From: Acidobacteriota bacterium
GTDB lineage: Bacteria > Acidobacteriota > Terriglobia > Bryobacterales > Bryobacteraceae
Length of the DNA: 64,000 bases
Direction: 5' to 3'
NCBI GenBank assembly: GCA_026393985.1
Contig: JAPKZB010000056.1
Span: forward strand, 1 to 64,000
Shown here: in pieces, positions 5,744-56,351 of the stretch
Layout of the letters: each line of letters starts with the position of its first letter
How positions within the stretch are numbered: position 1 is the first letter of the stretch
Made by a program: the position numbers and the translations under genes
The notes under the pieces: generated by a model
Databases searched by the model: none
The model's input: only the letters and a program-made list of their open reading frames with translations
What the model was told of the DNA's origin: nothing

Positions 5744-6103
5744 TCAACACGATTGTGGCATAGGGGTAGCGAGGGCGGAGCGGAGTTGGGAGTAGCGGAG
5801 GAGGAAGGCGGCTTCCGGCAGGCGTTTGCGGCGGAGCCAGGCGGTGACCTCTTCGTTGCACTTGCTGGTATTGCAGGAGGCGCAGGCGGGGACGATGTTG
5901 TCGAGGGTATAGCGGCCGCCGCGGGAGAGGGCAAGAACGCAGTCGCGCTGGAGGGGGATGCCGGTGGCGCCGCAGTAGGCGCAGCCGCCCCAGGCTTGTT
6001 GGAGGGCGGCCCATTGTTCGGGGCTAAGATCGTGTTCGACGCGCTGCATGCGGCGTTGGCGGCGGCGGGCGGCGCGGGCGCGGCGGGTGCGGCTGGGCGG
6101 CAT
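5744..6103 (-). CDS. Small HNH-fold protein, catalytic His replaced
   Basis: A 119-aa protein with a very basic N-terminus (PPSRTRRARAARRRQRR), then the zinc-site cysteines CAYC (41-44) and CASC (74-77), and an HNH beta-beta-alpha core. In typical HNH nucleases the core reads DHxxPLSRGG; here it is RDCVLALSRGG, so the first His (general base) is Cys and the Pro is Ala, while the following DNIVPACASCN is intact. It may be inactive as a nuclease, or act as a DNA-binding or structural protein. Start ATG at 6103; an in-frame ATG at 6139 would add 12 residues. It lies head to head with the ankyrin gene and immediately upstream of the oxidoreductase. Confidence 0.75.
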   Translation of the reverse strand: MPPSRTRRARAARRRQRRMQRVEHDLSPEQWAALQQAWGGCAYCGATGIPLQRDCVLALSRGGRYTLDNIVPACASCNTSKCNEEVTAWLRRKRLPEAAFLLRYSQLRSALATPMPQSC

Positions 6104-6154: not shown

Positions 6155-6886
6155 ATGGAGATTACGGCGGACGGCGCGCGGGGACAGGAGTTGAAGCGGG
6201 TGATTGCGGGCGGGGAGGTGGAGGCGCTGCGGGCGATGCTGGACGCCGAGCCCGCGTTGGCGCGGGCCCGGGTGGTGGGTCCGGGGCGGGAGCGGCGGAC
6301 GCTGCTGCACGTGGCGACGGACTGGCCGGGCCATTTTCCGCGGGTGGCGGAGACGATTGCGCTGCTGATGGAGCGAGGGGCGGACGCCGATGCGCCGATG
6401 GAGGGGGGCAACGCGCCGGAGCGGCCGCTGCACGGGGCGGCGAGCAGCAACGACGTGGCGGCGATTGATGCGCTGCTCGATGGCGGGGCGGCGATGGAGA
6501 GTCCGGGGGCGATTTTCACGAACGGCACGGCGATGTCGGACGCGGTGATTTTCGCGCAGTGGGCAGCGGCGCGGCGGCTGCTTGCGCGGGGGGCGCAGAC
6601 GACATTTACCGAGGCGGCGGGCCTGGGGCAGATGGACCGGCTGCGGGCGCGGTGGGCGGAGGATCCGGCGCCGGGGGTGGAGATGCTGACGGCGGCGCTG
6701 TGGCACGCCTGCCGGGGCGGGCAGGAGGAGGCGGCGCGGTTTCTCGTCGAGCGGGGGGCGAACTTGCACTGGGTGGGTTGGGACGGGATTACGCCGCTTG
6801 ACGGGGCGGTGCAGAGCGGGAACCGGGAGTTGATGGCGTGGCTGCTCGAGCGGGGGGCGCGGCATGGGCGGGGAGGTAGGAGTTGA
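6155..6886 (+). CDS. Ankyrin-repeat protein
   Basis: A 243-aa soluble protein of degenerate ankyrin units. Recognisable pieces are RRTLLHVATDW, LLMERGADADAPM, RPLHGAASSNDVAAIDALLDGGA, ARRLLARGAQT, ARFLVERGANLHWVGWDGITPLDGAVQSGNRELMAWLLERGA. About five to six repeats of the helix-loop-helix type are present, covering nearly the whole chain, so it is probably a protein-interaction scaffold. No signal peptide is seen, implying a cytoplasmic location. The partner is unknown. It is followed 15 bp later by the alkaline phosphatase gene on the same strand. Confidence 0.85.
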   Translation: MEITADGARGQELKRVIAGGEVEALRAMLDAEPALARARVVGPGRERRTLLHVATDWPGHFPRVAETIALLMERGADADAPMEGGNAPERPLHGAASSNDVAAIDALLDGGAAMESPGAIFTNGTAMSDAVIFAQWAAARRLLARGAQTTFTEAAGLGQMDRLRARWAEDPAPGVEMLTAALWHACRGGQEEAARFLVERGANLHWVGWDGITPLDGAVQSGNRELMAWLLERGARHGRGGRS

Positions 6887-44999: not shown

Positions 45000-45008
45000 A
45001 CTGGCGCG

Positions 45009-46223
45009 ATGGTATCGAGACGGTCCTTTCTTGCGGCGGTAGCCGGGGTGGGCGCGGCGGAGGCCGCGCTGCCGAAGATCAAGATTACGCGGGTGCGGAT
45101 CTACGAGCCGCCGGGGTACAACCCGCTGTTCAACCAGAGCAACATGCTCGTGACGGTGGAGTGCGACAACGGCACGGTGGGCATTGGCGAAGGCGGCGCG
45201 AAGGATACGCTCGAGCAGTGCGCCGGTACGCTGATCGGACAGAATCCGTTCCGCATTGAGGCGCTGTGGCAGGAGATGTACATCGCCTGGTTCTATCCGC
45301 CGGGCCGCGAGAAGATCCACGCGCAGGGGGCGATGGACCTGGCGCTGTGGGACATCAAGGGCAAAACGCTGGGCCTGCCGGTGCACGAACTGCTCGGCGG
45401 GACGGTGCGGAACCATGTAGAGTGCTACGCGACGGGCGGGGCGCCGCGGCCGCCGGGGGCGCCGCCGTTGTCGCTGCGGGACCGGGCGCGGGCGACCATG
45501 GACGCCGGCTACCGGGCGTTTCGCATGGGGGCGGCCGACACGCCGTCGAACACCACGTTCAACACGCACGAACGGGTGCGGAAGGTGGCGCGGGACTGTA
45601 AGGAGGTGCGCGAGGGCGTGGGGCCGGACGGCGACTGGTGCATCGACCTGCATCAGCGCTTCGACTATGCCGACGCGCTGCGGGCGTGCCGTCTGATGGA
45701 GGAGTTTGAGCCGTACTTTGTCGAAGACCCGGTACGCGACGAGCATGCGCATCAGGACATCCCGAAGCTGCGGCAGATGACGTCGGTGCCGTTGACGCAC
45801 GGCGAGGAGTGGGGGCAGCGGTGGGACTTCAATAAGCTCGTTGAGAACCACGACATCGACTACATCCGGGCCACGCTGCCGAACGTGGGCGGGATTACGG
45901 AGATGATGAAGATCGCGGCGCTGTGCGAGACGCACGCGGTGGGGATTATTCCGCACTTCACGGGTCCGGTGGCGACGGCGGCACTGGTGAACTGCCTGTC
46001 GACGTTCCCCGGGACAGTGATCATGGAGTACAACTACGGGGGGCGGCCGATTCCGCATCTGCCCGAATGCCTGGACTTCAAAGACGGCAAGGCGTACCGG
46101 AACGACCGGCCGGGGCTGGGGGTGACGGCGGATTTGTCGAAGTGCAAGCTGATTGGCGAAGTGACGCAGCCGGGGCGGAAGAATGTGTACTTCCGGCCAG
46201 ATGGCTCGCTGACGCACTGGTAG
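45009..46223 (+). CDS. Enolase-superfamily (mandelate racemase/galactonate dehydratase-like) protein, TAT-exported
   Basis: A 404-aa protein with a twin-arginine leader (SRRSFLAAVAGVGA). The MR/MLE fold is clear: GIGEGGAKDTLE, GAMDLALWDIKGKTLGLPVHELLGG, WCIDLHQRFDYADALRACRLMEEFEPYFVEDP (metal Asp and Glu in EDP), HGEEWGQRWDF and GIIPHF. The IDLH replaces the usual IDxN. Likely dehydrates or racemises a sugar acid in the periplasm. An AGGAGAG Shine-Dalgarno precedes the next gene. Confidence 0.9.
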   Translation: MVSRRSFLAAVAGVGAAEAALPKIKITRVRIYEPPGYNPLFNQSNMLVTVECDNGTVGIGEGGAKDTLEQCAGTLIGQNPFRIEALWQEMYIAWFYPPGREKIHAQGAMDLALWDIKGKTLGLPVHELLGGTVRNHVECYATGGAPRPPGAPPLSLRDRARATMDAGYRAFRMGAADTPSNTTFNTHERVRKVARDCKEVREGVGPDGDWCIDLHQRFDYADALRACRLMEEFEPYFVEDPVRDEHAHQDIPKLRQMTSVPLTHGEEWGQRWDFNKLVENHDIDYIRATLPNVGGITEMMKIAALCETHAVGIIPHFTGPVATAALVNCLSTFPGTVIMEYNYGGRPIPHLPECLDFKDGKAYRNDRPGLGVTADLSKCKLIGEVTQPGRKNVYFRPDGSLTHW

Positions 46224-46233
46224 GAGGAGAGCA

Positions 46234-47229
46234 ATGTTGACACGACGGGCCTTGTTGGCCGCGGCGCTGCCGCCGGCGCAGATGAATGACGCGGTGAAGC
46301 CGCTGGCCGAGGCGGTGGCCGCGGGGCAGCTGCGCGCGGCGGTGCTGCGGGTGACGCAGGGCGACGGCGTCTACGAGAGGGCCTTCGGAGCGGCGACCCC
46401 GGCGTCGCCGTTTCTGATTGCGTCGATCACCAAGCCGATGACGGCGGCGGCGGTGATGACGGTGGTGGAAGCGGGCAAGCTGCAATTGGACGCGCCGGCG
46501 GCGAAGCTGCTACCGGGGTTCGATGGGCGGATCACACTGCGGCAGATGCTCTCGCATACTTCCGGGCTGCCGGACATGCTGCCCGAAAACATTGCGCTGC
46601 GGAGGCGGAACGCGCCGCTGCGCGAATGGGCGAAGCTGGCGATGCAGACGCCGCTGCTGTTTGCGCCGGGCGAGAAGGTGAGCTACCAGAGCATGGGAAT
46701 TCTGCTGGCGGCGACGATGGCGGAGCTGGTATCCGGCGTGGCGATGCCGAAGCTGCTCGAGCAGCGGATTTATGGGCCGCTGGGGATGAAGGACACGTAT
46801 CTGGGGCTGGGGCGGTACCGGCTCGAGGAGACGGTGCAGAATCAGACCGAGCACGCGGATCCGGTGGGGGAGAAGCACTGGGATTGGAATAGCCGGTATT
46901 GGCGGACGCTGGCCGCGCCGTGGGGCGGGGCGCACTCGACGGCGGCGGACATTACGAAACTGCTGCGGTACTTTATGAAGCCGGGCCCGGGGCCGTTGCG
47001 GCCGGAGACGGCGCAGCAGATGGTGACGGCGCAGAGTGCGCAGTACGGACTGGGTTGGCGGTTGACGCCGGGGCAGTTCGGGCACGGGGGATCGACGGGG
47101 ACGCTGTGCTGGGCGCATCCGGGGAGGGACGTGACGTTTGTGCTGCTGACGAGTCTGCCGGCGCGGGTGTCGCAGAAGACGATTCTTGATCCGGTGTCGA
47201 AGGCGGTGCAGGGGGTGCTGCTGGGTTAG
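46234..47229 (+). CDS. Serine hydrolase, beta-lactamase family (class C-like)
   Basis: A 331-aa exported protein, short leader TRRALLAAALPPA. SxxK in SITK (Ser64-Lys67), YQS (151-153) as YxN-type motif, and HGGSTG near the C-terminus corresponding to the KTG box. LSHTSGLPDML is typical of the esterase/penicillin-binding subgroup. Probably an esterase, peptidase or wall-modifying enzyme rather than an antibiotic-resistance lactamase. It follows the enolase-superfamily gene by 10 bp with a good ribosome-binding site. Confidence 0.9.
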   Translation: MLTRRALLAAALPPAQMNDAVKPLAEAVAAGQLRAAVLRVTQGDGVYERAFGAATPASPFLIASITKPMTAAAVMTVVEAGKLQLDAPAAKLLPGFDGRITLRQMLSHTSGLPDMLPENIALRRRNAPLREWAKLAMQTPLLFAPGEKVSYQSMGILLAATMAELVSGVAMPKLLEQRIYGPLGMKDTYLGLGRYRLEETVQNQTEHADPVGEKHWDWNSRYWRTLAAPWGGAHSTAADITKLLRYFMKPGPGPLRPETAQQMVTAQSAQYGLGWRLTPGQFGHGGSTGTLCWAHPGRDVTFVLLTSLPARVSQKTILDPVSKAVQGVLLG

Positions 47230-47262
47230 AGGCGCGTCGATCCGCTAGAGTAGAGGGACGTT

Positions 47263-47691
47263 ATGCTAAAGTCTCTCAGCCTTAGCAATTTCACTGTTTT
47301 CCCTAGCGCCGAGTTAACCTTTGGCGACCACCTCAATGTGCTTGTCGGCGAGAACGGTACAGGGAAAACGCACATTCTGAAGGCAGCCTATGCTGGGATT
47401 GCGGTGAGCGCCGACTACAACGCGAGCGGGACAGGCTGGGGCCAGGGAGGGTGGGGTTCCGGAACATGGGGGGGAGGCAAGTCAATTTGGACCGCTGCGC
47501 TCGCACAGAAGCTGGTCGGGGTGTTTCGTCCTGACGAACTGGGGCGACTGGTCACGCGCGCCAGGGGCCGGCGGAAATCTGAACTGAGCTTTCACTTTAA
47601 CAACGAAGCCCTCGACTTTTCCTTTTCGTTCTCGACCCTCGCACGGTCCGAAGTCACACTGAAACACACGCCCACTGAGGTGATTGATTAA
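47263..47691 (+). pseudogene. AAA-15/RecF-like ATPase, N-terminal part before an in-frame TAA
   Basis: N-terminal 142 codons of an ABC/SMC-type ATPase: SLSNFTVFPSAELTFGDHLNVLVGENGTGKT with Walker A at residues 29-36. An insertion rich in Gly and Trp (GTGWGQGGWGSGTWGGG, about 56-72) follows. A TAA at 47689-47691 interrupts the frame; the sequence continues in the same frame as the next entry ([22 protein letters not shown]). The region is visibly poorer in G/C than its neighbours (hand count 29/60 at 47281-47340). No other start-of-gene promoter; AGAGGGACGTT precedes the ATG. Confidence 0.85.
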
Positions 47692-48372
47692 CGTCCTGTC
47701 TATCTACCGACCCGGGAATTGCTTACCATCTATCCGGGGTTTGTCTCGCTTTACGAAACCTCGCACCTTTCCTTCGAAGCGACATGGCGAGACACATGCG
47801 TTTTGCTCGGAGCTCCGCTCGCGAGAGGCCCACGAGAGAAGAGGATCAAGGAACTCCTAGGGCCGTTGGAGACGGCGATGGGAGGCAGCGTGGAACTCGA
47901 TGCCGGCGGACGTTTTTATCTCAAACTCGAGACGGGCAGGATGGAGATGCATCTGGTGGCGGAGGGGCTTCGCAAATTGGCAACGATAGCTCGGCTAATC
48001 GCTACGGGGTCATTGCTCGACAAAGGCTACCTGTTCTGGGACGAACCGGAATCGAACCTCAATCCCCGGATTATCAAGACCGTGGCGCGGGTGATCCTGC
48101 AACTGGCAGAGAGCGGTATTCAGGTCTTTATCGCAACTCACAGTCTCTTCTTGCTAAGGGAACTGCATATCCTGCAAAGTCAGCAGTTTGCAGGTCTGAG
48201 TGCCAGGTACTTTGGATTGGAGCGCACCCAAGCCGGTGTCGGCGTCCGTCAGGGGAATACGGTCGATGACATTGGCAGCATCGCGGCGCTGGACGAGGAC
48301 TTGCAGCAGGCGGACCGGTACATTGACACGGAGATGGGCCTGCCCGCCGAAGCCTCGCCAGAGGAGAGGTGA
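47692..48372 (+). pseudogene. AAA-15/RecF-like ATPase, C-terminal part
   Basis: In-frame continuation of the ATPase beyond the TAA; together they would make 369 aa. It holds the C-terminal ATPase half: [34 protein letters not shown] (Walker B/D-loop), [17 protein letters not shown] (His switch). A re-initiation at a TTG near 47719 is possible, so both halves might still be made. The organisation matches OLD/AAA-15 ATPases that pair with a nuclease in phage-defence cassettes. Directly followed by the nuclease-like gene. Confidence 0.85.
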
Positions 48373-48378
48373 ACCGAC

Positions 48379-48872
48379 GTGCCGACGATCCCGGTCGATG
48401 GGCTGTTGTTCGACATCAAGACCACTTACGATGCACAGAAATACGATGAGTGGGACTACTACCGAAGCGTTCTGCAGCCGCAGAAGTCTTACTCAGCGAT
48501 GGACCTGGTAATCGCAAGAGCTCAGCAGTCTCCCGTGGAGGTTTGGCTGGTGGAAGCGAAAGACTTCCGGATGATTACGAGGCCCCCGGAACGTTCCAAT
48601 CTGAACGGGCTTGCCGAGACGCTTGCCAAGAAGGTCAGCGATACGCTTGCGGGATTACGGGATGCCGCTGGAGCGGCCGCGCAAACCAACGAGCGCAGGC
48701 TGGCAGACACCTGGAGCCTCATACGGGCCACCGTTCGAAACTGTTTCCCTCGAACTTCTCGAGCGGGGTTCTGCAGAAATTACGGCAGGTAGTGGGCCAC
48801 ATCGATCCGCAACCGCAGGTTCTGAACATCGCTAACACGGGACGGGCAGGGGTGCCCTGGAGAGTCTCCTGA
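48379..48872 (+). pseudogene. Frameshifted PD-(D/E)xK nuclease-like partner of the ATPase
   Basis: The gene starts 6 bp after the ATPase. The first frame (48379 to about 48705) encodes VDGLLFDIKTTYDAQKYDEWDYY and AMDLVIA...VEVWLVEAKDFR, the D-x(n)-ExK pattern of restriction-endonuclease-fold nucleases, and then RRLADT. Beyond that the sensible sequence continues in another frame: HLEPHTGHRSKLFPSNFSSGVLQKLRQVVGHIDPQPQVLNIANTGRAGVPWR, ending at 48872. One shift, perhaps with a small deletion, near 48705-48715 breaks it; uncorrected translation would end at 48792 after 137 residues. Confidence 0.75.
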
Positions 48873-48881
48873 AGCGCGGAT

Positions 48882-50117
48882 CTACCAGCCGACGGGCTGG
48901 GTCCAGGCGCGTTTGGTGGGGAACTCGTCGCTGGGGACGGCGGGTTTTCCGGTGGACGTGACGACGGCGCGGACGTAGCGTTCGCCCGGCTTGAGCGTGT
49001 AGGCCGGGGTGAGGCCCTTCACCTCGGCGAGGAGCTCGCCGGCGGTGCCTTGGCGGCGGACGCCCACGAAACGCGTCGTGAACTCCTCTCCCGCCACCGG
49101 CTCAATGCGGAGGCTCAGGCGGCGCTCGGCGGGCGAGTAGGCCACGTCCGTCAGCGTGACGCCGGTTGAGGAGTAGAAGTCGCCGGCGCGGAGGGCGCGG
49201 ACGATGGAGTCGGCGCTGAGATGCGGGGCGCGGACCATTACCCAGGCGCGGCCGGGGAGGGCGCGGGTCTTGTTGCCATGGTGGTCGTGGGTGTCGTCGG
49301 TGGCGAGGCCGTACAGCGGCGGCGCGTCATAGCGGGTGAGGCGGAGGGCGTTGGCGATGTCCCACAGGGCATCCGTACTCGGGCGCTGCGCGTCGCCGGG
49401 GTCGTTGTCGTTGTCGACGCCGTTCCACACCTCGAAGAAGCGCTCCTGCACGACGCTGGCGAGATCTTCGGCGGTGATGCCCCATTTGTAGTTGGGGTGA
49501 TTGACATGGAGCAGCACCTCGCGGCCGGTGCGGGCGGCGTACTCTTCGACCTGTTCGAGATTCCGGACCATGCTTTCGGCGATGGTAGCGCCGCGGCGGA
49601 AACTAAGCGAGGCGGCGAGGTTGGTGGCGTTCATGTGCAGCGAACGGCCGTCGCCGGCCGTGCCGGTGAGTTCGACCGAGGGGATCAGGAGAAACCGCCG
49701 CGGTTCGTCGACCATGGCGCGGACCTCGTCGAGGGTCTTCAGGCGGATCTCCTCGCTGCCGTCGGCGGCCTGGCCGCGAGACTCGACCCAGCGGGGGCCG
49801 AAGCGGGCGCGGTAGGCGGCGACGGCATCGACACCGGCGCGGCGGTTGATGGCGCGAGAGGGCATCCAGCGTTCGGACTGAGCGAACACGTTGTGTTCGG
49901 AGAGCGCGAGGAAGTGGTAGCCGTGGTCACGGTACCAGGCGGCGACCATGTCGGGGAAGCCGTCACCATCGGACCAGAGCGTGTGGGTGTGGAGGTTGCC
50001 TTTCCACCAACGCAGGCCAGCGGCGGGTTCCGGGCGGGGGGCCTGCGCGGCGGCGAAGCCGAGCAGGAGGGCGGCCGCGGCGCAGGCGCCGGCGCGGAGG
50101 AGGAGCAGCGAGGGCAT
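48882..50117 (-). CDS. PHP-domain metallohydrolase (CehA/McbA-like), secreted
   Basis: A 411-aa protein with a signal peptide (SLLLLRAGACAAAALLLGFAAAQ). The PHP metal site is HTHTLWSDG followed by ALSEHN, IPSVELTG, LLHVNHPNYKWG and YGLATDDTHDH. Exported members of this group hydrolyse phosphoesters or act in carbohydrate breakdown. The C-terminus adds a beta-sandwich-like segment (GVTLTDVAYSPAERRLSLRIEPVAG). It converges on the decayed defence cassette with a 9-bp gap and follows the DUF1080 fusion gene closely (4 bp). Confidence 0.85.
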   Translation of the reverse strand: MPSLLLLRAGACAAAALLLGFAAAQAPRPEPAAGLRWWKGNLHTHTLWSDGDGFPDMVAAWYRDHGYHFLALSEHNVFAQSERWMPSRAINRRAGVDAVAAYRARFGPRWVESRGQAADGSEEIRLKTLDEVRAMVDEPRRFLLIPSVELTGTAGDGRSLHMNATNLAASLSFRRGATIAESMVRNLEQVEEYAARTGREVLLHVNHPNYKWGITAEDLASVVQERFFEVWNGVDNDNDPGDAQRPSTDALWDIANALRLTRYDAPPLYGLATDDTHDHHGNKTRALPGRAWVMVRAPHLSADSIVRALRAGDFYSSTGVTLTDVAYSPAERRLSLRIEPVAGEEFTTRFVGVRRQGTAGELLAEVKGLTPAYTLKPGERYVRAVVTSTGKPAVPSDEFPTKRAWTQPVGW

Positions 50118-50129
50118 AGCGCTATTGTT
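50118..50129 (-). promoter_or_regulatory. -10-like box 6 nt before the PHP gene
   Basis: On the minus strand AACAAT (+ strand 50124-50129) is followed by 6 nt and the ATG at 50117. No Shine-Dalgarno. It lies in the last codons of the upstream fusion gene. Confidence 0.4.
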
Positions 50130-51915
50130 TCAGACGGAGGTTGCGGTACTCCACCTTCATGGGCGGGCCGACGTGGACCTGAACGCCGATCAAGCCCTGC
50201 GTGGCGCGGCCGACGAGGTCGTCGTCGATGACCATGCTCATCAGTTGGCCGTTGATCAGGTGGATGAGGGTGTTGCCGCGGGCGATGATGTGGACGCTGT
50301 TCCAGCCGGGGAGGAGGTGCTCTTTGGGGTCGGCGTGCGTGGCGACGATCTGGGGCTTGCGGTGGCCGAGGACGCGGGTGGTTTGGCCGCGGAGGGCGAG
50401 GAAGAGGCGGCCGCGCTCTTCGTAGTTCTGGCCGGTGTAGGCCTGTTTGCCGTCGATGTCGCACTGGTAGCCGCGGAGGGCGTAGGGGCGGTCGGGCAGG
50501 AGGCTGCTGCGGTAGTTGATGCCGGAGTTGCCGCCGGCGGTGATGCGGTAGTCGAGTTTGAGTTCGAAGTCTTTGGGTTGGCCGCCGCGCCAGATGAGGA
50601 AGGTGTTGTTTTTGAGCAGCGTTTCCGGGGTGACTTCGCCGACGATGGCGCCGTCTTCGACGCGCCAGTACTTGGGGTCGCCGTCCCAGCCGGCGAGGGT
50701 CTTGCCGTCAAATTGCGAAACGAAGCCAAGCTCGTCGGCCGGGGAGGGGGCGGGTTCGGGGCGGTCGCTTTGCTTGGGGACGTGGGCGACGGGGGCGGGG
50801 GTGAGGCAGCTTTGCTGGACGCCGACGGCCCAGCGGCGCTGGAAGCCTTTGAGTTTGCCGTCGAGATAGGCGCGGCGGGATTCGTCGCCTTTCAAGTGGA
50901 GATCGAGGAAGGCGGAGACGAAGTGCTGGTTGATGGCGTTGAGGCGGTCTTTGCGCCAGACGGGTTCGTCGAAGCTCTCTTTGGTGGCGAAGTCGAGCGG
51001 AAGGGCGGGCGGGGGGTTGCCGCCGATGTTGTGGCGGGCGCCTTCGTAGACGAGGAGGCAGCGGGGGGAGTTGACGGCCTGGTGGTAGGCCTTGCGGACG
51101 CCTTGTTCAAAGCCGGAGATGTCGTCGTGGTCGCCGGCGAGGAAGAGGGCGGGGACTTTGATGTTGGCGAGGGCGGCGGGCTCCCAGAGGTTGACGGGGG
51201 GCTGGGCGCCCCAGGGGGCGATGGCGACGACGGCCTTCAGATTCGGGTTGGGTTCGTTTCGCAATTTGGCACCGGGCGGGGTGCGGGTGGGGAGGGCGCC
51301 GGCGGAGATGAGGGCGCCGTAGCCGCCCATGGAGTAGCCGATGATGGCGACGCGGGCGGGGTCGATGTTGGGTTGGGAGGCCGAGAGGGATTCGATGGTG
51401 AAGTGCTGATCGTTCGAGCGGTTGGCGAGGGTGGAGGGGAAGGGCTTGACGTTGCCGAAGACGGAGTCGGTATGGTCGATGGCGGCGACGACGTAGCCTT
51501 TCGAGGCGAGGTTTTCGGTGAGGTAGGACAGGAACGTGCGGGAGCCGGGGTAGCCGTGGGAGACGATGACGAGGGGGAAGCGCTGGTTGGGAAGCGGGGC
51601 GGCGTCGCGGAGGGCTTTGCCGTCGATGGTGAAGGGCCGGGGGTTGCGGCCGGGGAGGGTGCTTTCATAGACCGTGCGGGCTTCGGCGCCGGCGGGGAGG
51701 AGGGCCGGGTACCAGAGTTCGACTTTGAGGGGGCGGTCGAGGAGGGGGGCCTGGTTGGTTTCCTTGTTGAAAGCGAGGACGTCGGGTTGGGCGGGGTTGA
51801 CGAGGTCGAGGGTGCGGACGCCGACGGGGTGGGGACCCCAGGCGGCGAGTTCCGGACTATCGACGCCAGGGACGCTGAAGAAGGCTTGGAGGAGGGCGAG
51901 CAGGAGGACGGACAT
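50122..51915 (-). CDS. Alpha/beta-hydrolase fused to a DUF1080 domain
   Basis: A 597-aa secreted fusion. The N-terminal ~390 residues form a PAF-acetylhydrolase/dienelactone hydrolase-like domain with the nucleophile elbow GYSMGGYGA, an oxyanion loop VIVSHGYPG, and His in EGARHNIGG. A Pro/Ser-rich linker (about 378-392) leads to a DUF1080 domain (FVSQFDGKTLAGWDGDPKYWRVEDG, DFELKLDYRITAGGNSGINYRS, VEYRNLRLKQ). This fusion could cleave an ester and a keto-glycoside in the same substrate. TAAGCT sits 6 nt before the ATG. Confidence 0.88.
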   Translation of the reverse strand: MSVLLLALLQAFFSVPGVDSPELAAWGPHPVGVRTLDLVNPAQPDVLAFNKETNQAPLLDRPLKVELWYPALLPAGAEARTVYESTLPGRNPRPFTIDGKALRDAAPLPNQRFPLVIVSHGYPGSRTFLSYLTENLASKGYVVAAIDHTDSVFGNVKPFPSTLANRSNDQHFTIESLSASQPNIDPARVAIIGYSMGGYGALISAGALPTRTPPGAKLRNEPNPNLKAVVAIAPWGAQPPVNLWEPAALANIKVPALFLAGDHDDISGFEQGVRKAYHQAVNSPRCLLVYEGARHNIGGNPPPALPLDFATKESFDEPVWRKDRLNAINQHFVSAFLDLHLKGDESRRAYLDGKLKGFQRRWAVGVQQSCLTPAPVAHVPKQSDRPEPAPSPADELGFVSQFDGKTLAGWDGDPKYWRVEDGAIVGEVTPETLLKNNTFLIWRGGQPKDFELKLDYRITAGGNSGINYRSSLLPDRPYALRGYQCDIDGKQAYTGQNYEERGRLFLALRGQTTRVLGHRKPQIVATHADPKEHLLPGWNSVHIIARGNTLIHLINGQLMSMVIDDDLVGRATQGLIGVQVHVGPPMKVEYRNLRLKQ

Positions 51916-53830: not shown

Positions 53831-53901
53831 CTTAGGATACGAAACAACCGGTTCGTCGGAAAGGGCGAGGGGTTTCGGGGGAGGCCGGGCATGATCGAAT
53901 C

Positions 53902-54591
53902 ATGAAGACCTCACATACGACATGGGCATTGATGGCGGTGGCAGCGGGAATGCTGGCGCAGGAGCCGGTACGGTTCGACGATAAGGTCCGGGAGCAGTTT
54001 TTCGCCGGGCTGGGGGGCGATGGGGCGGCGCTGGCGGAGGCGATGAAGATATCGGCGGCGACGCTGGCGGCGGAGCCGTCACACGCCGAGGCCATGGTTT
54101 GGCATGGGAGCGGGCTGTTCTTTCAGTCCGGGGCGCTGTTTCAGAAAGGAGACATGCAGGCGGCGATGGCGATGATGCAGAAGGGGACGGGGATGATGGA
54201 CAAGGCGGCGGAGTTGGCGCCGAAGAACGTGGGGGTCCGGATTCCACGCGGGTCGGCGTATCTGGCCGCGAGTAAGGGGATGCCGCCGCAGATGGGCACT
54301 CCGTTGCTGGTCATGGGGGTGAAGGACTATGAAGATTGCTGGGAGATGCAAAAGGGCGATCTGAGCGGGTTTAGCGAGCATTCGCTGGGCGAACTGCTGT
54401 TTGGCATTGCCGAGGGCAACGGGCGGCTGGGGAAGACGGAGAAGGCGAAGGAGTACTTCACGTTGATCCAGACGAAACTGCCGGGAACGGCCTATGCCAA
54501 GCGCGCGGAGAAGTGGCTGGCGGAAGGGAAGTTGAGTTCGCGGGACTCCAACTGCATGGGTTGCCACATGGGAAGCCCGAAGGTGAAGTAA
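53902..54591 (+). CDS. Exported helical (TPR-like) protein with C-terminal CxxCH
   Basis: A 229-aa protein with a signal peptide (KTSHTTWALMAVAAGMLA). The body is helical, with paired-helix repeats such as TLAAEPSHAEAMVWHGSGLFFQSGALFQKGD and NGRLGKTEKAKEYFTLIQTKLPGTAYAKRAEKW, resembling TPR units. The extreme C-terminus contains NCMGCHMG, a heme c attachment motif (CxxCH), only seven residues from the end. Either a mono-heme periplasmic protein or a metal-binding tail. It lies 1 bp before the sensor-kinase gene, suggesting it is part of that signalling unit. Confidence 0.75.
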   Translation: MKTSHTTWALMAVAAGMLAQEPVRFDDKVREQFFAGLGGDGAALAEAMKISAATLAAEPSHAEAMVWHGSGLFFQSGALFQKGDMQAAMAMMQKGTGMMDKAAELAPKNVGVRIPRGSAYLAASKGMPPQMGTPLLVMGVKDYEDCWEMQKGDLSGFSEHSLGELLFGIAEGNGRLGKTEKAKEYFTLIQTKLPGTAYAKRAEKWLAEGKLSSRDSNCMGCHMGSPKVK

Positions 54592-54592
54592 C

Positions 54593-55627
54593 TTGAGGAA
54601 GGTGAGAGTTCCAAGGCCGGTTCTCGCGATTCTGTTCATCACGCTGGGGGTGATGGGCATCAACCTGTTCTTCGCCCGGGGGACGGGATGGCGGGAGATG
54701 GCCGATATCTTCCTGGTCACATTGATCTATAGCACTTCGATTAGCCTGCTCTGCTATCAGGCGGGGAGCCGGTTCTGGCGGCGGGGCGGGAAGCATGGCC
54801 TGGCGCTGAACATCGGGGTGATGGCGGGCGCCGTGGTGCTGGGTTCGTTTATGGGTTATGCGATCTCGGTCGGGTTGGGGCTGGTGCGGCCGAGGTCGTT
54901 TTGGGGCGGCTACTGGGCGACTTTGCAGTTCGCGGCGTTCATCTCGGCCACGTTCGGACTGACGGTGATGGTCTATGAGTATTACCGGGGGAGATCCGAC
55001 TGGGCGGAGTTTGAGCGGGAGCGGGCGTTGAAGCTGGCAAGCGAGGCGCAGCTGGCTTCGCTGGCATCACGGGTTCATCCGCACTTCCTGTTCAACACGC
55101 TGAATACGATCAGCGCGTTGATCCACGAGGACCCGCAGAAGGCGGACGAACAGTTGCAGCGGCTGTCGAAGCTGCTGCGCTTTTCGCTGGACGCGCCGGA
55201 GGCGAACCTGGTGCCGCTCGACCGGGAGTTGCAGGTGGTAGCAGATTATCTGGAGATCGAACGGACGCGGTTCGCCGAGCGGCTGCGCTACCGGGTGGAG
55301 GCTTCGGCGGAGGCGCGGGAGTGTTCGGTGCCGCCGTTCGCGGTGCAGACACTGGTGGAGAACTCGGTGAAGCATCACGTGGCCAAGCGCCGGGAGGGCG
55401 GCGAGGTGGTGGTGCGGGCGGAGCGGCGGGGAGGGGCGCTGGTGGTGACGGTGACCGATGACGGGCCGGGGATTCCGGCGGGGGCGGCGCTGCCGGGGCA
55501 CGGGTTGGAGATTTTGCGGGGACGGCTGGATGCGCTGTTCCCGAAGGATGCGAAGCTGGAGATTGCCGGCGCGGAAGTGACGATTACCTTACCTGCCCAT
55601 GTCGATTCGAGCGTACGTATTGGATGA
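54593..55627 (+). CDS. LytS/YehU-type sensor histidine kinase
   Basis: A 344-aa kinase with four helices in residues 10-130 and no extracytoplasmic sensor domain of note. The phosphoacceptor motif is RVHPHFLFNTLN (His164 by alignment with the family NPHF), followed by the HATPase parts LVENSVKHHVAKR (N box) and VTDDGPGIP (G1), then GHGLEILRGRLDALF. It acts on the LytTR regulator whose gene overlaps its end by 29 bp. Start TTG at 54593; a GTG three codons later is possible. Confidence 0.9.
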   Translation: MRKVRVPRPVLAILFITLGVMGINLFFARGTGWREMADIFLVTLIYSTSISLLCYQAGSRFWRRGGKHGLALNIGVMAGAVVLGSFMGYAISVGLGLVRPRSFWGGYWATLQFAAFISATFGLTVMVYEYYRGRSDWAEFERERALKLASEAQLASLASRVHPHFLFNTLNTISALIHEDPQKADEQLQRLSKLLRFSLDAPEANLVPLDRELQVVADYLEIERTRFAERLRYRVEASAEARECSVPPFAVQTLVENSVKHHVAKRREGGEVVVRAERRGGALVVTVTDDGPGIPAGAALPGHGLEILRGRLDALFPKDAKLEIAGAEVTITLPAHVDSSVRIG

Positions 55628-56351
55628 TGAACCGCTGGCCGTGAAGCGGCTGGTGCGATTGCTGGGGGCGACCGGGAAGGTCACCGTGGTGGGCTTTTCG
55701 TCGGACCCGGAGGCGGCGATTGCAGAGATCGCGGAGCTGCGGCCGGAGGTGCTGTTTCTCGATATCGAGATGCCGGGGCTGACGGGATTCGACGTGCTGC
55801 AGCGGCTGAGCGGGGAGCCGTTAGTGGTGTTCACGACGGCCTACGACCAGTACGCGCTGCAGGCGTTTGCGGTGAACTCGGTGGACTATCTGCTGAAGCC
55901 GGTGGAACCGGCGGGGTTGGACCGGGCGCTGGCGAAATTGGGCCGGACGCTGGGCGGACAGGAGGCGGCGCCGGACTTGCAAAAGATCATTGCGGCGCTG
56001 ACGAAGCCGGCGGCGTATCCGGCGCGGCTGCCGAGCCGGACGGGGGAGCGGGTGGAGTTCGTGGACCTTGCGCGGGTGACGCACTTCTACGGCGAGGACA
56101 AGCTGACGTTTGCGGCGACGGCGGCGAAGGACTTCGTGGTGGACCATTCGATTGCGGAGCTAGAGGGGAAGCTGGACCCGGCGCGGTGGTTCCGGATTCA
56201 CCGGTCGACGCTGGTGCAGTTGGATTATGTGCAGGAGTTGCACGGGTGGATTGGGAACCGGCTGCTGATCCGGTTGAAGGATGAAAAGAAGACGGAGTTG
56301 CAGGTGGCGCGGGAGCGGGTGGCGGAGTTGAAGGCGAAGCTGGGGTTATAG
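55599..56351 (+). CDS. LytTR-family response regulator
   Basis: A 250-aa regulator. Receiver domain: acidic pocket DDEP (residues 9-12), phospho-acceptor Asp55 in FLDIEMPG, Thr/Ala in FTTAYD and Lys in LLKPVE. A LytTR DNA-binding domain follows (EFVDLARVTHFYGEDKLTF, WFRIHRSTLVQLDYV, ELQVARERV). Overlaps the kinase gene by 29 bp. Typical targets control envelope, autolysis or exopolysaccharide genes; the direct repeats it would bind are not evident nearby. Confidence 0.94.
   Translation: MSIRAYVLDDEPLAVKRLVRLLGATGKVTVVGFSSDPEAAIAEIAELRPEVLFLDIEMPGLTGFDVLQRLSGEPLVVFTTAYDQYALQAFAVNSVDYLLKPVEPAGLDRALAKLGRTLGGQEAAPDLQKIIAALTKPAAYPARLPSRTGERVEFVDLARVTHFYGEDKLTFAATAAKDFVVDHSIAELEGKLDPARWFRIHRSTLVQLDYVQELHGWIGNRLLIRLKDEKKTELQVARERVAELKAKLGL

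Follow-up and report, generated by a model that had tools for sequence, protein, structure and literature searches.

Between two convergent host genes, the window (the whole stretch of 64,000 nucleotides that was analyzed, in which positions are counted from the first letter) carries an insert of 1,652 bp. In it, the genes for an ATPase and a nuclease adjoin on one strand, and both are broken. The features are as follows.

46234 to 47229, plus strand: left host gene, open, a serine hydrolase of the beta-lactamase family (PF00144, E = 1.7e-52)
47230 to 48881: whole insert (57.9% GC), a stretch missing in the same-genus genomes G010, G016, and G009
47230 to 47262, plus strand: left end of the insert, in which a 10-base stretch common to the two same-genus cassettes begins at 47244, next to the ATPase start
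47263 to 47691, plus strand: N-terminal piece of the HEC-02 ATPase with Walker A, ending at an in-frame TAA (PDLC04146 columns 1-124, E = 4e-37)
47428 to 47496, plus strand: Gly/Trp-rich loop insertion downstream of Walker A (window translation, alignment with relatives, comparison of loop lengths)
47692 to 48372, plus strand: C-terminal ATPase piece with EGLRK, Walker B, and H-loop (PDLC04146 columns 129-342, E = 3.5e-104)
48379 to 48711, plus strand: N-terminal part of the HEC-02 nuclease, likely of the PD-(D/E)xK kind, with D...ExK (PDLC04145, E = 1e-16)
48702 to 48872, plus strand: C-terminal part of the nuclease, in another frame, after an internal deletion (profile of 69 relatives, DNA alignment)
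48882 to 50117, minus strand: right host gene, convergent, an open reading frame with counterparts in G010, G016, G009, G001, and G017

The right host gene, for which a Pfam search returned no significant match, is one that we take to be PHP-like. The block of lower GC noticed by an earlier, sequence-only reading was exact (29/60 at 47281-47340 versus 40/60 at 47101-47160); as 8 of 591 other overlapping segments of the insert's size (1,652 bp) in the 64-kb window are as low or lower, the low GC of the insert is unusual, though not unique. An Rfam search over 45000-51000 gave no match. The 10-base stretch at the left edge occurs once in the window, is common to three cassettes, and was absent from all five cassette-free loci tested; it may be the tail of the donor's hydrolase gene or the cassette's own leader. 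An inverted pair near the insert ends (15 nt, 80%; 47231-47245 and 48876-48890) was rejected as a terminal repeat because its right arm enters the host gene and because 12 other pairs of 10-17 nt lie within the same 1.8 kb.

The open ATPase pieces (47263-47688 and 47692-48369) match the two parts of one PADLOC ATPase profile, PDLC04146 (344 columns), and profile searches of the own genome returned them as a single match with one internal TAA, at 47689-47691, which bears out the in-frame stop that had been claimed for this gene. Walker A and ATHS, also named before, are both found in the window translation, and a TTG at 47719 could serve as start of the C-terminal piece. No second ATPase copy was found in the own genome except for one weak match of 33%. 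The Pfam and PADLOC matches are to ATPases of the AAA_15/AAA_21 type. Of the former label "OLD/AAA-15-like," this part stood, whereas the OLD part was rejected, as a Pfam search of the three pieces, taken to E = 1, showed no TOPRIM and as the nuclease is a separate protein. An ATPase of this type is shared with OLD, Gabija GajA, and PARIS AriA-AriB, but in these, a TOPRIM domain is fused or supplied by a partner; the partner in the window has D...ExK instead. The stretch after Walker A, which the sequence-only reading had found unusual, is indeed so: the spacing from Walker A to VFRP is 50 residues in the window ATPase versus 33-42 in 45 relatives, and Gly plus Trp make up 32% of it versus at most 15% in 58 fitted rows (79 ATPases were given to the comparison, of which 21 had no motif fit and 13 had implausible lengths of 98-244 from a wrong match). 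It is an insertion in a variable loop, found in no relative examined.

The nuclease gene starts at 48379, directly behind the end of the ATPase stop codon at 48372. Its first part (48385-48711) covers positions 3-105 of the profile of 69 relatives (E = 5e-23) and its second part (48702-48869) positions 115-168 (E = 1.6e-6), the two lying in different frames, and when the DNA is aligned with the copies of two same-genus genomes, gaps of 14, 5, and 18 columns open up ahead of the second half. The frameshift reported earlier was thus found again; judged from these alignments, the lesion is an internal deletion with loss of frame. The D...ExK motif is present in the N-terminal part (AMDLV ... WLVEAKD), and its residues are close to invariant in the relatives (D42 and E59 in 69/69; K61 in 68/69), as is K85 (69/69). 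The nuclease partner had no Pfam match, no second copy of it was found in the own genome, and no solved structure was related to it by sequence up to E = 1.

PADLOC assigned the window pair to HEC-02, a candidate antiviral system, both genes matching its models (in which the labels A and B occur in both orders); the intact nuclease protein of the same-genus genome G013 matched PDLC04145 with E = 1.4e-35. In PMC12988326, HEC is spelled out as "Hma-embedded candidate," with a 2024 preprint by Payne et al. cited for it, and PMC11411939 discusses HEC-05 and HEC-06. A literature search found no work describing HEC-02, its full-text match being an unrelated nano-silver study. The window pair is almost certainly HEC-02: it shares with this system the matching models, the adjacency, and the single strand, and it differs from it in that both genes are broken, the ATPase by the TAA and the nuclease by deletion and frame loss, and in that there is no Hma cluster around the cassette, the neighbors being the serine hydrolase and an unrelated convergent gene. 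The missing Hma embedding is no bar to membership, because the neighbors of most relatives are not Hma genes either. The cassette is ordinary in kind, a very probably dead representative of a candidate system already known.

To collect relatives, we scanned species genomes with an ATPase alignment of seven rows, made up of five plasmid proteins, the G013 protein, and the C-terminal window piece. At least 541 ATPase relatives were confirmed, of which the best 80 (47-82% identity) were kept. Among these best 80 of at least 541, a full-length nuclease lay directly behind the ATPase on the same strand in 69, which supplies the intact homologs and the conserved pairing that the sequence-only reading had proposed to look for; the nuclease was broken in six (L058, which is the G006 assembly, L060, L090, L097, L107, and L129) and absent in two (L087 and L111), and three loci ended with the contig (L070, L076, and L105). 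The gap between the two genes was between -14 and +26 in 66 of the 68 cases measured, with start codons picked by script. As intact relatives exist in other bacteria, the window copy looks like an ordinary inactivated defense locus.

Incomplete loci are a plasmid HEC-02 ATPase without nuclease (L053) and the Desulforhopalus locus L111 (from 7063), in which another frame instead of a nuclease follows the ATPase; by its reading, this frame is presumably a DUF499/HmaC-type ATPase. HEC-02 pairs also occur on three contigs of the IMG/VR viral collection (L138, L139, and L140; ATPase 50% identical to the G013 protein), which may be phage-borne or host sequence, with a full-length nuclease in L138 and L140 and a frame stopping at 6253 in L139, of which the stored sequence ends at 6361.

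By profile counts, HEC-02 is rare in the phylum to which the window belongs. PDLC04145 matched 2 of 396 own-phylum genomes at E ≤ 1e-5 and none of 14 controls, the nuclease profile of the relatives 4 of 399 class genomes, and the ATPase profile 7 of 396 own-phylum genomes at E ≤ 1e-20. Only strong ATPase matches were used, because the model is unspecific at weak scores (E ≤ 0.001: 50 of 61 relatives and 12 of 14 control genomes). Full-length matches to it in this comparison came from G000, G013, and G006 only, with G003 matching in two pieces. In the latter genome, an HEC-02 ATPase relic lies elsewhere (L026, 8031-8707; profile positions 1-50 and 60-167, in different frames). Plasmid searches by nuclease returned the same two records each, and E. 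coli genomes gave no match with one Pseudomonas pair as the sole query.

The defense-island neighborhood envisaged by the sequence-only reading was encountered around some relatives, next to HmaB/HmaC and BREX genes, but not around most. When proteins flanking 78 loci were scanned (all of the 80 but L058 and L083; 74 proteins from the upstream and 71 from the downstream side, obtained by greedy ORF choice within 800 bases and cut to 330 residues), HmaB was matched by 8, HmaC by 6, and HmaA by 1 of 145, counts that refer to the first 25 of 112 matching families and have no control set beside them. Two more distant plasmid relatives adjoin BREX genes, one by pglX and the other between brxC and pglX. 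Such neighbors would agree with the name "Hma-embedded," even though most neighbors are not defense genes among the families listed.

Is the window copy really dead? With the genome assembled in 96 contigs, each of the lesions might stem from an error of assembly or sequencing, in which case the system would be intact and active. However, the two lesions differ in type and hit neighboring genes, whereas both flanking genes are open, and HEC-02 genes are also broken in records without MAG in their title, namely, the nucleases of L097 (Phormidium) and L129 (Acanthopleuribacter) and the ATPase of L083 (Thiohalocapsa), which makes this explanation highly improbable. (In L083, Thiohalocapsa halophila, the ATPase has an in-frame TAA at codon 5, 5998-6013, and the nuclease is open.) It is still harder to believe that the fragments are expressed and working, for example, a C-terminal ATPase piece started internally at the possible TTG together with the truncated nuclease, whose N-terminal part keeps the catalytic residues. 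Walker A and Walker B would then be on separate polypeptides, the nuclease would be without the C-terminal elements of the modeled fold, and among the best 80 of at least 541 relatives, 79 have the ATPase in one unbroken frame (one of these, L058, with an internal run of N). With the two Walker motifs on different pieces and the C-terminal part of the nuclease lost, the window copy can hardly be functional, and we consider it very probably inactive.

What an intact pair might do was approached with predicted folds, both models being built for relative L059 and not for the broken window proteins. The nuclease model (69-row alignment; mean pLDDT 93.3) had FokI as its best Foldseek match in the PDB (E = 0.024; none below 0.001), and with VIA-align, it matched BstEII (Z 7.0; 4.8 Å over 131 residues), AF1548 (6.8), and FokI (6.7), all below 8, followed in lower rows by BsmI, Can2, CdiA-CT, HamA, Shedu, McrBC, and Hjc. 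With the same model, a Z of ∼5 is also reached by unrelated folds, acetyl-CoA carboxylase among them; the fold alone would therefore not suffice, and it is the invariant D...ExK together with the fold matches that supports the assignment. The HEC-02 nuclease is thus likely a PD-(D/E)xK enzyme, which by its model weakly resembles restriction-type nucleases, in line with the class that had been read from the window. The ATPase model (pLDDT 90.9), which shows no long coiled coil, matched SMC and Rad50 heads with Z values up to 21.1 (SMC head; 3.6 Å over 275) and a retron or Septu PtuA with a Z of 19.7 (4.5 Å over 308 residues). As modeled, the fold is clearly nearest to Rad50/SMC heads and PtuA.

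With Septu, HEC-02 shares an ABC-type ATPase, which matches the PtuA fold over ∼300 residues, and a separate nuclease gene. PtuB is an HNH nuclease, whereas the partner in the window and its relatives carries D...ExK; PtuA models are mostly longer than 400 aa, whereas the ATPases of HEC-02 relatives have 342-368 aa; and by sequence, the window ATPase matches PtuA models, among the matches listed, only over the first 40-55 residues. With Rad50-Mre11, HEC-02 shares the fold of the ATPase head and the pairing of ATPase and nuclease, and with SMC heads the head fold; it differs from Rad50 and SMC in that its ATPase model lacks the long coiled coil, and from Mre11, a phosphoesterase, in the kind of nuclease. 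By analogy, we somewhat favor the view that HEC-02 works as an ATP-gated nuclease. The ATPase, a putative Rad50/PtuA-like ABC head without long coiled coil, would form ATP-dependent dimers or oligomers, recognize some nucleic acid structure related to phage, and control its partner, the PD-(D/E)xK nuclease, in the way suggested by Rad50-Mre11 and Septu; the released nuclease would then cut nucleic acid of the phage or of the cell. Since Septu, according to PMC13096335, cleaves the variable loop of tRNA-Tyr, both DNA and tRNA are possible targets. This structural reading of both proteins can be tested at the bench.

To assess how the cassette came to its site, 18 genomes were searched, and the seven of the same genus that were most alike in the hydrolase were examined (left out were G018, G005, G002, G004, G015, G003, G014, and G007, with a more distant hydrolase, and G011). 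In G010, G016, and G009, the flanks meet directly at 47229|48882, without any base in between. In G010, whose flanks are 97.2 and 97.5% identical to those of the window, and in G016, the stop codons of the hydrolase and the right gene abut; in G009, the stop codon of the right gene is changed, and its frame runs on into the hydrolase end. Behind this hydrolase, G013 and G006 carry the cassette; G006 lacks the right neighbor, has the following gene in its place, and shows an in-frame TAG in its nuclease. G001 and G017 hold ∼3.5 kb of different sequence there (two genes in G001; L152, 6069-9538), which gives the junction the look of a small insertion hotspot. Elsewhere in the window, a 2.5-kb block (53845-56332) is missing in G010 and G016 and lies inside a continuous match in G009; by ORF reading, its genes encode a TPR-like protein, a histidine kinase, and a LytTR-type regulator.

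An unrooted hydrolase tree of 11 sequences, without G009 (motif filter), pairs the window and G010 on the one hand and G013 and G006 on the other, both with a support of 1.0. Differences from G013 at the three codon positions number 48/35/85 and 57/28/123 in the two ATPase pieces and 48/34/71 in the N-terminal part of the nuclease, a third-position excess that would be as in genes long under selection; dS is saturated, so that no dN/dS is given.

Two histories compete for these data. The cassette might be ancestral to the window, G010, G016, G009, G001, G017, G013, and G006 and have been lost by deletion from those lines that now lack it, leaving in the window a vertically inherited, dying remnant. 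G013 and G006 indeed hold it at the same site and with the common left edge, and the cassette has diverged little further than the sequence beside it (DNA identity to G013 of ∼70% for the ATPase versus ∼78% for the hydrolase and 71-73% over the first part of the right gene). Yet the sister of the window in the tree, G010, is empty, and G010, G016, and G009 share one junction point, so that several independent losses must have ended at the same base; we regard vertical descent as unlikely. A gain in the window lineage takes one event, and import after the split from G010 is accordingly the likely course. The cassette would have reached this lineage by recombination with a relative carrying a same-site copy. 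The donor was not found, the window and G013 cassettes being only ∼70% identical. Afterward, the nonsense codon in the ATPase and the frame-breaking deletion in the nuclease would have ended its function. Overall, the locus is with good probability an inactivated HEC-02 copy that was imported by recombination with a relative and then killed by two lesions. The horizontally acquired, now inactive defense-type pair suspected from the letters alone is supported by the PADLOC system, by the intact pairs, and by the empty site in three same-genus genomes. The useful part is this exact comparison of empty and filled site, as for a little-studied defense candidate, empty, filled, and otherwise-filled versions exist within one genus; the cassette itself is an ordinary dead defense locus.

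A wider reading is tentative and rather doubtful: HEC-02 might be an ATP-gated machine of the Septu/Rad50 type, with a PD-(D/E)xK nuclease having taken the place of the HNH partner, this nuclease might be costly and usually lost first, and the cassette might persist in the genus through breakage and re-import by recombination at one fixed gap between convergent genes. Among the best 80 of at least 541 loci, six broken and two absent nucleases stand against one broken ATPase, but these counts are no fair test because the loci were found and ranked by their ATPase, which hides broken ATPases. In the reverse search, by nuclease first in the 399 class genomes, two of the four positive genomes had a broken nuclease, and one of these also a broken ATPase; these are too few, and loss of the nuclease first is not claimed.
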